NCBI GenBank assembly: GCA_003553485.1
Contig: PWEJ01000017.1
Coordinates: 62,001 to 126,000, forward strand
Direction of reading: 5' to 3'
Length of the DNA stretch: 64,000 bases
Source: Halanaerobiaceae bacterium
GTDB taxonomy: Bacteria; Bacillota; Halanaerobiia; Halanaerobiales; Halarsenatibacteraceae
Within the stretch, counting starts at the first letter, position 1. Each line of letters starts with the position of its first letter. This document shows positions 39,459 through 47,789 of the stretch, piece by piece. The position numbers were made by a program, and so were the translations under genes. Under the pieces are notes generated by a model. That model had not been told where the DNA came from and did no database searches. It saw nothing but the letters and a program-made list of their open reading frames with translations.

Positions 39459-39818
39459 CTAAAATTCTATCAAACCCAGGCTTATCTCAATAGCTCTATT
39501 TACCTGGGTTATTATTTTAGAATCTAATCTGGTTATATGTCTCTCCAATCTCTGCTTATCTAAGGTTCTGATCTGTTCTAATAAAATAACAGAATCTTTA
39601 TCAAGTTCACTATCGCCTGCTTCGATTTCAACATGGGTGGGTAATTTAGCTTTTCTGATACGAGAGGTAATAGCAGCCACAATCACTGTGGGGCTGTAGC
39701 GGTTACCGATGTCATTTTGAATGATAACAACTGGACGGGTACCTCCCTGTTCAGAGCCTACTACCGGGTTTAAGTCAGCATAAAACACATCACCGCGTAA
39801 TATCTCCAATTTTTTCAC
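39459..39818 (-). CDS. mazF: MazF/EndoA-type endoribonuclease toxin
   Basis: A 119-residue toxin of the MazF/PemK family that cuts mRNA at short sequences. Key pieces: [29 protein letters not shown] with the catalytic Arg, [19 protein letters not shown] with the catalytic Thr/Ser region, and [16 protein letters not shown]. It closely resembles B. subtilis EndoA. Start GTG 39818 has its SD-like GGAGA too close; TTG 39809 (MEILRGDV) with GGAG about 10 bases upstream is a good alternative. Paired with the antitoxin gene 29 bases upstream. Confidence 0.95.
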
Positions 39819-39847
39819 TCTCCACTAAACAATTATTGCTGGCTAAT

Positions 39848-40126
39848 TTAATCACAATCGGCTAGATTATCTTCGTAAAAAGAAATAGCCCTGTGATTAT
39901 TCAACAATCCTTCATCAGCCAAATCTCTATTTAAATCACTCATTTCCCTGTAGCCATTTTTTAGTTGTTTTTTTATCTGATCTTTCTTTAAATGAGCAAG
40001 ATACAATCTGACAGCTTCTTTAAAAAACTCACTATTATTACTAACCTCACTGGATCCCAGATGACCCTGTACCTCTTTCATCAAATTAGCCGGAATACTT
40101 ATCTGCAGCCTTTTATTTTCCCCCAA
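39848..40126 (-). CDS. mazE: Ribbon-helix-helix antitoxin (MazE/EndoAI type)
   Basis: A 92-residue antitoxin. The N-terminal ribbon-helix-helix is visible (KRLQISIPANLMKEVQG followed by SEFFKEAVRLYLAHLKK), and the acidic C-terminus (FYEDNLADCD) should wrap the toxin, as in EndoAI. The start codon is TTG at 40126. RHH antitoxins usually repress their own promoter; repeats at 40361-40400 are candidate sites. It lies between the 47-codon ORF and mazF. Confidence 0.9.
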   Translation of the reverse strand: MGENKRLQISIPANLMKEVQGHLGSSEVSNNSEFFKEAVRLYLAHLKKDQIKKQLKNGYREMSDLNRDLADEGLLNNHRAISFYEDNLADCD

Positions 40127-40525: not shown

Positions 40526-42691
40526 TTATAATTTTAGATAAAGTCCCTCGTTTTGACAGTGTTCTATGACTTTATTATAGAAATCTTCCCTGGACAACAG
40601 AGAAGAATCTCCTAAGATTATTGCTTTACCAACGGTCCTTGATAAAGCCTTTCTTAAAAGGGAGGGTTTTTGCAAAGGCCCTAGATAGCCATAATCATTA
40701 CTCCTGACGGTACTTAATATAATGATCTCTCTTTCTAAGCCCTGCCAGGACTCCAGCGGGGCCAAAAAAAGGTTTTCCCTGTTTAGTTTACCTTTAAGAT
40801 AGCGATACTGGTCTGAAAAAAAAGTGAGCGCTCCAATATTATCAGCCTTTAAACCTGAACTTAAAGCTGTAGAGAGTAAATCTAATACTATTTCGGCTTC
40901 TCTACTATTATAATAAGAGTTAGAGCCTGGATATTGTTCTTCTTTAGCCAGCAGATTTTTAGTATCGATAAAAACCAGCTCTTCTCCGCCCAGTAAAGCT
41001 TTTTCCTCTGGCATCCCTAGCTCCTCTAACTTTGACTGTCTCTCTCTTTGCTGCTGATTTTCTTGCCCCCTTTTCTTATAGCTAGCCCCGATATCCCCTA
41101 CACAGTTATTTTCCTGGCAGAGATTATCATTAATAAAATCCATCAGATCAGAGGAAAGGCGATGCTGTATTTTCAAGTGCTGATAAAAATGCTGATTTTT
41201 TTCGCTATAGAGGCGATTATAGAGTTGATTATTTTCTTCCTCCTTTGCATCACCAGCCAGCACAAAGCGCCGGGCTTTGGTTAAAGCCGGTAAAAGTTCT
41301 ATTTCAGCTATCGAATTAGCATCATCAACAATCAACAGATCAAAGAAGGATTCAGTAAGTTTGGTTCTAGCCAGTTCAGTAGGAGTGGCAAAAACAAGCT
41401 GAGCCTCTTCAATAACACTGGCAACTGCACTCTCCTTTTTATCTTTAATTCTTTCGGCCAAAACCTGCAACCTTTCTTGCAGTCTTTGGTTTACCTGCTG
41501 TTTATCAATATCTATACCAGCTATCTTTTTTCCTGAGGATATCCTATCTTTTTCTAACTTGAGATCTAAAGCCTGAATTTCCAGACGACGGGCAGCAAGA
41601 TAATTTTTATCCTCCAGCACCTGATTGATTAGTCTAATTTCCTCTAATTCCTTATCTTGAAAAACCATGGAGCCCAGCCAGACCTTTTCTTCTTTCAGGG
41701 GCAACAGGCGCCGGGCTATATCTGCCAGCATCTCTTTATATTTGCCAAGCAGCAGCACTTTCTCACCATTACCTAAAGCCTGTTTTAAGATCTCAATAAG
41801 GGTCTCAGTTCTGCCGGTACCGGCTCCACCGTCTACCAGGAAAAAGTTTTGGGCCTTCCGGGCCCGCTGAACTGCTGATTTTTGTTCCGGCACCAGGTTA
41901 TTATTATACCAGTTCTTTAAACGGACCTTACCTGGCAGCCACTGCGGCTCTTCCCGGTCCAGAAGAGCTACATCCCGCAATTTCTTTAAAGAACCTTGAG
42001 GATTTTTAAGTTCTTCAAGGACCTGTAAAGATTGGTTATAAAGCCCGTCATGATAGAATTTATCCAGCATAAGTTTCTCTTCAGTCAGAAAATCAGGAAA
42101 CTCTCCCTCTATAGCTAAAAGAAGATAATAAGAAGATATATCAACTATTTCTACAGTGATCTCCTCCTCAGTTTCCTCCTGCTGCGGTCTGACTAAAGCC
42201 TGATCTCCTATTGTTAAAAAAGTTACAGGTAGCTCCTGTCCTGCCTTTACCCGATAAAGCAATAATAACTTTCGATTATCAAAATAACGGCCATTATATC
42301 TCCCCTTAAGCCCTGTGAGGGCCTGACCTCTTCTCTCCCTTATTTCAGGAGAATAATGCTTTATCTCTAAAGAAAATTTATTATTATAATCATCTCTTTC
42401 CTGCTTTACTTCTCGCTGTTTCTCCTTCAAATAACTGACCAGATCCGGCGGCATTACATTATTGGGATTGGCAGGATTAACCTTAACCTTTACCCCCCCA
42501 ATTTGATTGTTGTCCATGGTATCAATGACGCGAGCGGCAACCCTGTCTTCCAATTCTACTTCTGCTTTATTATTGGTGATATTAATTTTACCGATATCTT
42601 TATTGGAAACACCGCATTCATTGATAAAAGCTCCAACAATATCTCCTGGACCAATATTTTTTTCAAAGCCACTGATTATTATTTTTATCAT
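40526..42691 (-). CDS. SF1 helicase-like protein with N-terminal DbpA-type RNA-binding domain
   Basis: A protein of about 721 residues. Residues 1-75 (IKIIISGFEKNIGPGDIVGAF ... NQIGGVKVKV) look like the DbpA/CsdA RNA-binding domain. A UPF1/IGHMBP2-like SF1 helicase region follows. Its Walker A reads GGAGTGRTET, with Arg for the essential Lys, and its Walker B reads IVDDANS, with Asp for Glu. Motif III (VLAGDAKE), motif V (SWQGLEREIIILSTVRSN) and motif VI (KALSRTVGKAIILGD) are recognisable. ATP hydrolysis may be weak or lost. ATG 42691 has AGGAGG 9 bases upstream. Function unknown. Confidence 0.82.
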   Translation of the reverse strand: MIKIIISGFEKNIGPGDIVGAFINECGVSNKDIGKINITNNKAEVELEDRVAARVIDTMDNNQIGGVKVKVNPANPNNVMPPDLVSYLKEKQREVKQERDDYNNKFSLEIKHYSPEIRERRGQALTGLKGRYNGRYFDNRKLLLLYRVKAGQELPVTFLTIGDQALVRPQQEETEEEITVEIVDISSYYLLLAIEGEFPDFLTEEKLMLDKFYHDGLYNQSLQVLEELKNPQGSLKKLRDVALLDREEPQWLPGKVRLKNWYNNNLVPEQKSAVQRARKAQNFFLVDGGAGTGRTETLIEILKQALGNGEKVLLLGKYKEMLADIARRLLPLKEEKVWLGSMVFQDKELEEIRLINQVLEDKNYLAARRLEIQALDLKLEKDRISSGKKIAGIDIDKQQVNQRLQERLQVLAERIKDKKESAVASVIEEAQLVFATPTELARTKLTESFFDLLIVDDANSIAEIELLPALTKARRFVLAGDAKEEENNQLYNRLYSEKNQHFYQHLKIQHRLSSDLMDFINDNLCQENNCVGDIGASYKKRGQENQQQRERQSKLEELGMPEEKALLGGEELVFIDTKNLLAKEEQYPGSNSYYNSREAEIVLDLLSTALSSGLKADNIGALTFFSDQYRYLKGKLNRENLFLAPLESWQGLEREIIILSTVRSNDYGYLGPLQKPSLLRKALSRTVGKAIILGDSSLLSREDFYNKVIEHCQNEGLYLKL

Positions 42692-42713
42692 CAACTGCAC
42701 CTCCTGGAAAAAC

Positions 42714-45694: not shown

Positions 45695-47515
45695 TTACTC
45701 CACCGTCACACTTTTTGCCAGATTCCTCGGTTTATCTATAGAACGCCCCAGAATTTTAGCAGTATGGTAGGCTAATAATTGCAGGGGTAAAACTGTAAGA
45801 ACCCCGGCCCAGAGTCCATTACAGAGAGGTACCTCTATAACTTCATCAAGGTCCTCCTGAGAAGTAATTATGCCCCCACTGACAACGGCAATCACCCTGC
45901 CATTGCGAGCGGTGACCTCTTTTATATTGCTTAAAGTTTTTGGGGCCAACTCTTTCTGGGTCATTATGGCAATCACCGGCACCCCTTCTTCTACTAAAGC
46001 TAGAGTGCCATGCTTTAATTCTCCTGCTGGATAGGACTCGGCATGGAGATAAGAAATCTCCTTGAGCTTTAAAGCCCCTTCTAGAGAAAGGCTATAATCT
46101 AAATTTCTTCCGATAAAAAATATGCTCTGCTGGTCTTTAAGATAATCTGCAATTTTTTGACATTGTTTTTCTACCCGATTTAAAGTAGCAGTTATTTTTT
46201 CTGGCAGTCGCAGTAATTCCCGGCGATGGACAGCCAGTTTTTTGCGTGAGAGCTCCTCCCGCAGTTCCGCCAATTTTAAGGCCAATAGATAAAAAGCAAT
46301 CAACATAGCCAGATAAGCTTTAGTGGAGGCTACTGCAATCTCTGGCCCGGCCATAATATTGATAACCACATCGCTGCTTCGGGCTATACTGCTGCCTGGA
46401 GTATTGGTAATGGCCAGGACCTTACAACCCTTAGCCTGAGCTTTTTTCAAAGCCGCCAGGCTATCAGCTGTCTCACCAGACTGGCTAACAACAATCACCA
46501 GCGTATTTTCAGTTAAAAAATCTCTTTGATAGCGCAACTCCGAAGCAATTTCTACCTCAACGGGTAGATGAGCCAGCTCTGCCAGAACATGTTTGCCCAC
46601 TAAACCGGCATAGTAGGCGGTACCACAGGCAGTAATCATAATCCTTTCAATATCCTTATCCCAGATATCATTTAATTCAGGGATTTTTACCTGATATTCA
46701 TCAAGGTATTCACCTAAAATCCTTCGAGCTACTATGGGTTGTTCGTAGATTTCCTTCAACATGAAATGCTCATAACCTTTTTTCTCCACCATTTCAGCAT
46801 CCCAATCTGCCTTAAAAATAGCACGCTTTACTGTCTGATTATCAGCTGAAATAATCCTGACATTTTCACTATCGATAACTGCCATCTCACCATCCTCCAG
46901 AATCTTAAACTCACTGGTGACATTTAGCAGAGCTGGCATATCAGAGGCCAAATAATTTTCTTTTTCTCCCAGACCAATTACCAGGGGGCTATCCTGGCGG
47001 AGAGCATAGATTTTGCCAGGATTTTTTCTATCTATAACAGCCAGTGCATAGGAACCCGTTGTTTTCTCCTTTAATTTTTGCAGGGAGGAAATCATGTCTT
47101 TTTCATAAATTTCCTCAATAAGATGAGCAAGAACCTCTGTATCGGTATCAGAGGAAAAAGTATGGCCTTGAGCCTCCAAATCTTCCTGTAGCTCTTGATA
47201 ATTTTCAATAATACCGTTATGAACCAGAGCAAACCTCTCCTGACAATCCTGGTGGGGGTGTGAGTTCTCATCACTGGGAATGCCGTGAGTGGCCCAGCGA
47301 GTATGGCCAATCCCCAGAGAACCTTCCAGACTCCTGGAATTTAGCTTTTCTGCTAATTTATTAAGCTCTCCCTCTGCTTTCACTACTTTAAGTTCATCAC
47401 CATTAAGAACAGCCAGACCAGCAGAATCATATCCTCTATATTCAAGTTTCTTTAAACCCTGCATTAAAAATTCCTGAGCTTTTTTCCGTCCAGCACATCC
47501 AATAATTCCACACAT
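45695..47515 (-). CDS. glmS: Glucosamine-6-phosphate synthase (glutamine:fructose-6-phosphate aminotransferase)
   Basis: Makes glucosamine-6-phosphate for cell-wall amino sugars; about 606 residues. Cys2 directly after the start Met (MCGIIGCAG) is the glutaminase nucleophile, so ATG 47515 must be the start; GGAGG lies 7 bases upstream. The N-terminal Ntn domain has GHTRWATHG. Two SIS domains follow (ITACGTAYYAGLVGKHV, VSQSGETADSLAAL, FIGRNLDYSLSLEGALKLKEI), and the end is KPRNLAKSVTVE. It is controlled by the glmS ribozyme in its leader. Confidence 0.98.
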   Translation of the reverse strand: MCGIIGCAGRKKAQEFLMQGLKKLEYRGYDSAGLAVLNGDELKVVKAEGELNKLAEKLNSRSLEGSLGIGHTRWATHGIPSDENSHPHQDCQERFALVHNGIIENYQELQEDLEAQGHTFSSDTDTEVLAHLIEEIYEKDMISSLQKLKEKTTGSYALAVIDRKNPGKIYALRQDSPLVIGLGEKENYLASDMPALLNVTSEFKILEDGEMAVIDSENVRIISADNQTVKRAIFKADWDAEMVEKKGYEHFMLKEIYEQPIVARRILGEYLDEYQVKIPELNDIWDKDIERIMITACGTAYYAGLVGKHVLAELAHLPVEVEIASELRYQRDFLTENTLVIVVSQSGETADSLAALKKAQAKGCKVLAITNTPGSSIARSSDVVINIMAGPEIAVASTKAYLAMLIAFYLLALKLAELREELSRKKLAVHRRELLRLPEKITATLNRVEKQCQKIADYLKDQQSIFFIGRNLDYSLSLEGALKLKEISYLHAESYPAGELKHGTLALVEEGVPVIAIMTQKELAPKTLSNIKEVTARNGRVIAVVSGGIITSQEDLDEVIEVPLCNGLWAGVLTVLPLQLLAYHTAKILGRSIDKPRNLAKSVTVE

Positions 47516-47594
47516 TGGCAATCCTCCATTTATTTAAGCAAGTTTTTATTTGCAAAAAATCAATCAATTTATTTTATTAGAATTAGAATTGCTG

Positions 47595-47614: not shown

Positions 47615-47624
47615 TAATAAACAA

Positions 47625-47765
47625 GGACCTCAGTTGAGTCTCTGTCCCCCCAGTTACCTGGTGGTTTTACCTCAACCATTAGGGCTGGTCAGACCCGGAA
47701 GCATCCGCCGAACCTTCGATAACTTCCTCCTCGTCATCCTGTCAGGCAGGATCAGGCGCTTTTGC
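47625..47765 (-). ncRNA. glmS ribozyme (glucosamine-6-phosphate-activated riboswitch)
   Basis: On the minus strand the sequence reads AGCGCCTGATCCTGCCTGAC, then GATGACGAGGAGGAAG, TATCGAAGGTTCGGCGG and ATGCTTCCGGGTC, matching the conserved core of the B. subtilis glmS ribozyme. Self-cleavage is expected between A at 47760 and G at 47759. P2 is ATCCTG/CAGGAT, and a 3' hairpin (GACTCAACTGAGGTCC) ends it near 47625. It lies upstream of glmS and begins only about 25 bases after the glmM stop, so cleavage would cut a glmM-glmS transcript when GlcN6P is plentiful. Boundaries are approximate. Confidence 0.93.
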
Positions 47766-47789
47766 TTTTTAACAAAGACTAAAAGGGCT

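Follow-up and report, generated by a model that had tools for sequence, protein, structure and literature searches.

A lineage-fixed, probable pseudohelicase with a DbpA/YxiN-type RNA-binding domain, from an SF1 family with a repeatedly altered motor

Locus and domain architecture

The window, by which we mean the whole 64,000-nucleotide stretch of DNA analysed here, encodes on its reverse strand a protein of 721 residues followed by a stop codon (40526-42691, as read from the open reading frame), which begins with ATG and is preceded, 8 nt 5' of this start, by the Shine-Dalgarno sequence AGGAGG (42700-42705, reverse strand, read from the sequence). A MazF/PemK-type toxin gene is located at 39459-40126 on the same strand, preceded by an ORF of 92 residues in the antitoxin position, for which no Pfam match was found; this pair adjoins the gene under study in almost all genomes that were compared across the class. 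A glmS ribozyme/riboswitch, also on the reverse strand (47622-47771; RF00234, 101.6 bits), is present directly 5' of the glmS gene (45695-47521).

The window protein consists of an N-terminal DbpA/YxiN-type RNA-binding domain (RBD) and an SF1 core of the IGHMBP2/UPF1 type. The RBD spans residues 1-75 (42467-42691, reverse strand, as for all features below), and its PF03880 match (residues 9-72) reaches 54.6 bits against a curated cut-off of 25.6, which is also passed by intact and altered orthologs. A linker and 1B-like region follows (residues 76-262, 41906-42466), delineated from the structural model and segment comparison; the SMUBP-2_HCS1_1B model matches intact orthologs but not the window protein. 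The remainder is covered by AAA_11 (residues 267-483, 73.8 bits) and AAA_12 (residues 489-696, 85.7 bits). In agreement, the AlphaFold2 model (mean pLDDT 82) has IGHMBP2 as its best Foldseek match (4b3f, E 3e-39; also 4b3g), followed by Upf1 and Dna2, and the isolated RBD model (pLDDT 93, 92.8 before rounding) superposes on E. coli DbpA (7pli, TM 0.85) and B. subtilis YxiN (3moj, TM 0.83-0.87). The first-pass annotation had read the protein as such a fusion, which is borne out by the HMM searches it proposed, with PF03880 at the N-terminus and AAA_11 and AAA_12 in the rest, as well as by Foldseek and the solved structures. It had also regarded an RBD on an SF1 protein as an unfamiliar pairing; the fusion is real but not peculiar to this protein, being found in a mostly intact family of the class and in some other halophiles.

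Several catalytic elements of the core have changed. Walker A reads GGAGTGRT (residues 288-295, 41807-41830), with lysine replaced by arginine at position 294 (codon AGA, 41810-41812), and Walker B reads FDLLIVDDAN (residues 450-459, 41315-41344), with aspartate in place of the catalytic glutamate at position 457, i.e. a D456-D457 pair. Both substitutions had been noticed in the initial reading and are confirmed in the sequence, whereas its view that motifs III, V and VI look conserved stands only in part. Motif III is reduced to a remnant, LAGDAKEE (residues 478-485, 41237-41260), in place of the GDHKQLPPT of intact orthologs, such that the glutamine and the residues following it are gone. 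Motif V is partly kept (WQGLERE, FQGREKE in intact orthologs; residues 649-655, 40727-40747), and motif VI (ALSRTVG, residues 682-688, 40628-40648) retains R685 in a changed context. Little remains of motifs Ia and Ic in the ortholog alignment, and motif IV (LKIQHRL, 41156-41176) retains R511. The Q-motif residue Gln270 is kept as well, as are Thr295 in Walker A and Asp456 in Walker B.

Fixation in the genus and repeated alteration of the motor

The gene is present in 44 of 59 genomes of the class, in 42 at full length and in two (G007 and G010) ending at a contig end; some families lack it. The locus order is acpS-nnrD-(CBS)-dcd, the gene, the ndoAI position and mazF, mostly with glmS before and with small variations. 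In the window genome we find a single full-length RBD-SF1 copy and no other PF03880 protein. A scan of genome contigs with the window protein alone as query returned no match. With a single full-length copy per genome, in a constant gene neighbourhood, these genes are orthologs, not paralogs, and a divergent paralog residing beside an intact copy is ruled out.

The 30 intact orthologs analysed carry motifs of the types GPPGTGKT, DEATQ and GDHKQLPPT. Such intact forms, which the first-pass annotation had considered a sign of sequencing error or local decay, occur outside the genus of the window organism (g1), also in two genera that belong to its family. Within g1 there are none: all four g1 species examined share GRT, DD and the loss of motif III, in full-length ORFs throughout. 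The window genome is a 172-contig draft, which might raise the question of a sequencing or assembly error at the motifs; however, the same residues recur in three further genomes of the genus, at 48% protein identity, which refutes an error and leaves it a negligible probability.

Altered motors are not confined to g1. Nine altered proteins were identified in the alignment, distributed over five lineages. Besides the four g1 proteins, G005 of genus g3, in the same family as the window organism, has FEDS and no motif III glutamine, while G020 of g11, placed with Halanaerobium by the neighbour-gene tree, has PPATGKT, IEEAN and GDQKEL. G017 of g13 (IDDAN) and G039 and G042 of family f9 (IDDAH) have aspartate in place of the catalytic glutamate but still carry the lysine of Walker A, the glutamine of motif III and both arginines. 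The second acid of Walker B is aspartate in four of the five lineages.

Walker B has been altered independently at least four times. In a tree built from four genes that flank the RBD-SF1 gene at these loci (853 columns), four changes between the intact and altered states are required, and constraining all altered loci to one clade is rejected (p-AU 3.5e-48), as are a g1, g3 and g13 clade (p-AU 3.2e-17) and a pairing of G017 with G020 (p-AU 3.5e-5). There may also have been five events, in which case g1 and g3 would not share one loss, since the test does not reject a grouping of g1 and the intact g2 (p-AU 0.21). In the whole-protein tree most altered proteins fall together on very long branches, as long-branch attraction would give. 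A single origin of the altered state is ruled out by the neighbour-gene tree together with family-specific traits of the RBD, i.e. Cys26 in f1 and a two-residue insertion in f3.

GTDB genomes were scanned for relatives, and the following refers to the 80 loci listed. Among these matches, the RBD is present in Halanaerobium, Frackibacter, Halovenus, Halobiforma, Halopiger and Salinivenus, as well as in metagenome-assembled genomes (MAGs) of an Aliifodinibius type, of two Bacteroidetes, of Methanohalarchaeum and of a Bipolaricaulota labelled GSL; no RBD match was found in the listed proteins of methanogens, ANME archaea, Thermococcus, Campylobacterota and further groups. Among the matches listed, fusions outside the class were seen only in lineages that we take to be halophilic from record names and general knowledge, which belong to several phyla and to both prokaryotic domains. 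Among sampled genomes, the fusion occurs in 3 of 97 from the Halovenus class and in 6 of 247 from the Salinivenus phylum. In the tree, bacterial and archaeal fusions group together, which suggests that the gene was transferred between halophilic lineages. Every fusion inspected outside the class has catalytically intact Walker A, Walker B and motif III elements; the intact fusions L057, L059, L061-L066, L070 and L075 come from haloarchaea, Salinivenus-type bacteria, the Methanohalarchaeum MAG and the Bipolaricaulota MAG.

DEAD-box content was surveyed in the genomes as well. No PF00270 match at E <= 1e-30 was detected in the window genome (G000), G001 or G002, with completeness of 95% or more for the former two and 77% for G002; such matches are present in G003, G005 and G007. 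Replacement by a DEAD-box protein carrying the RBD shows no clear pattern, as the window genome is without another PF03880 or strong DEAD-box protein and some other altered genomes have them.

Constraint on the two parts and RNA recognition

Across the 30 intact orthologs 169 positions are invariant, with 19 in the RBD, 29 in ATP motifs, 22 in RNA motifs and 99 elsewhere. Seven of the nine altered proteins (the four g1 members, G005, G017 and G020) keep all 19 of the RBD residues, of which 16 and 17 survive in the two proteins of f9. The window protein retains under half of the invariant core, namely 14 of 29 ATP-motif, 6 of 22 RNA-motif and 42 of 99 other residues. Compared with its genus mates, it is 79-83% identical in the RBD and 41-55% in core segments, whereas in intact pairs the RBD is no better conserved than the core (e.g. 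54% versus 55-65% for G004 and G006).

The same shift is evident from dN/dS, estimated according to Nei and Gojobori, with dS exceeding 1 in some pairs. Intact pairs give 0.04-0.22 for the RBD and 0.05-0.14 for the core, and g1 gives 0.03-0.05 and about 0.24, the latter two to four times the value of intact pairs, with the reading frame open in every member. Hence the order is inverted in g1: the core is relaxed, yet still under purifying selection and not neutral. The persisting selection argues that the core does something, and the strongest constraint, acting on the RBD, argues that the job retained is RNA recognition.

Regarding the RNA that may be bound, the window RBD aligns to YxiN without gaps over residues 7-75. 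When YxiN is bound to its RNA, backbone contacts from I436, G437 and I439 recognise a guanine (PMC3695512). Using numbering transferred via construct residues 404-479, these correspond to I33, G34 and I36 of the window protein, within the segment I33-G34-K35-I36 (42584-42595) aligned with I436-G437-I438-I439, and they are invariant in 34 family members. The uridine-contacting K427 of YxiN is replaced by N24, and specificity may therefore differ. By analogy, the target is probably a guanine-containing element like hairpin 92 of 23S rRNA; since Hera reads another RNA with a similar RBD, we put forward hairpin 92 itself only as an inference.

Proposed function and relation to known systems

Based on these comparisons, we consider it likely that the window protein is a hydrolysis-dead pseudohelicase that retains an RNA-binding function directed by its RBD. 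The ancestor would belong to the RBD-SF1 RNA helicase family of the class, which is conserved and has stayed intact in most members. In the intact form, the DbpA/YxiN-like RBD would dock on RNA, probably on a guanine-containing element as YxiN does on hairpin 92, and the IGHMBP2/UPF1-type core would then act with ATP at the docked RNA. In g1 the core is without the lysine of Walker A, the catalytic glutamate and the glutamine of motif III, and most residues of motifs Ia and Ic have gone, such that ATP hydrolysis and translocation are not expected; the core would remain as a folded scaffold on which purifying selection is relaxed, and the protein would serve as an ATP-independent RNA-binding chaperone, clamp or adaptor. 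The first-pass annotation had offered an ATP-independent RNA binder or switch, and the former fits best with GRT and DD throughout the genus, the missing motif III and a constraint that has moved to the RBD, the loss of ATPase activity being predicted from the sequence. That the catalytic residues were changed or lost repeatedly with the RBD nearly unchanged suggests that it is the gripping of RNA, not its unwinding, that must be kept. More tentatively, and with more doubt than belief, this may extend to the halophile-associated RBD-SF1 family as a whole, with ATP-independent RNA recognition as its indispensable output, the motor having been modified or inactivated on four or more occasions with the RBD kept, possibly acting at the peptidyl transferase region of 23S rRNA.

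Since GKT has become GRT and both the catalytic glutamate and the motif III glutamine are gone, hydrolysis by the window protein is very unlikely; it may still bind nucleotide, as the arginines on the gamma-phosphate side, the Q-motif glutamine, the Walker A threonine and the first Walker B aspartate are kept. The protein might thus be an ATP-binding switch, with hydrolysis very slow or nil and nucleotide occupancy closing the core on RNA as a clamp. We regard this as unlikely here, because the Walker A lysine and the motif III glutamine are also missing in g1 and the ATP motifs have decayed about as much as other core residues (14 of 29 versus 42 of 99 kept). For g13 and f9 a slow or non-hydrolysing ATP-bound clamp would nevertheless be a real alternative, given that the ATP residues other than the catalytic glutamate are retained there; the recurrence of aspartate as the second Walker B acid points the same way, and in degenerate ABC sites with the glutamate-to-aspartate change, ATP stays bound and is hydrolysed very slowly (PMC7756269). 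That the protein is an unusual SF1 ATPase, kept active by compensating residues, is improbable: the arginines, Thr295, Asp456 and Gln270 and the continuing selection on the core would be compatible with it, but the changes affect three distinct catalytic elements at once, motifs Ia and Ic are lost, and the lysine-to-arginine change alone abolishes the ATPase of E. coli PriA (PMC4504706). Marginally less probable still is a gene decaying towards loss with no retained function, as might be read from the raised core dN/dS and the absence of the gene from some families; the full-length frames in four species, the low dN/dS of the RBD with its complete set of invariant residues, and the fixed locus argue against it.

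In conclusion, the window protein is a real, lineage-fixed pseudohelicase, of helicase ancestry and with catalytic residues lost throughout a clade, from a little-described RBD-SF1 family whose motor has been altered repeatedly; the accompanying loss of ATPase activity is predicted from the residues replaced. A literature search, to which most subscription journals were outside coverage, found no description of the RBD-SF1 fusion. If our interpretation is true, the family offers repeated natural experiments separating RNA docking from unwinding, in which comparing orthologs with a working and a dead motor would reveal the part of the helicase that the cell needs.

Several known systems share parts of this arrangement. 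With the IGHMBP2/SMUBP-2 SF1 helicases (TIGR00376; 4b3f, 4b3g) the window protein has in common the core fold, the domain order and the best PDB match. Intact orthologs exceed the TIGR00376 cut-off of 348.9 bits (L006 680 and L005 673, i.e. 670-680 bits), but the window protein scores 200.1 bits, has R294 and D457 and a lost motif III where that family has intact elements, and carries the N-terminal RBD in addition. DbpA/YxiN DEAD-box helicases (3moj, 7pli) share the RBD fold and the guanine-reading I-G-x-I positions; their RBD, however, is C-terminal on an SF2 core, whereas here it is N-terminal on an SF1 core (AAA_11/AAA_12), with N24 in place of K427. The degenerate sites of ABC exporters likewise have a catalytic glutamate-to-aspartate change in a conserved ATP site (PMC7756269), although these proteins are unrelated and have an active site as partner of the degenerate one. 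A precedent as a bacterial pseudohelicase, described from one phylum, is PriA of Deinococcus radiodurans, in which GKT has likewise become GRT with a poor Walker B, fixed in a clade, and which lacks ATPase activity but retains DNA binding (PMC4504706). PriA belongs to a different family and acts on DNA, whereas in the RBD-SF1 family an ortholog at one fixed locus has had its catalytic residues changed independently on at least four branches, with a separate binding domain kept.
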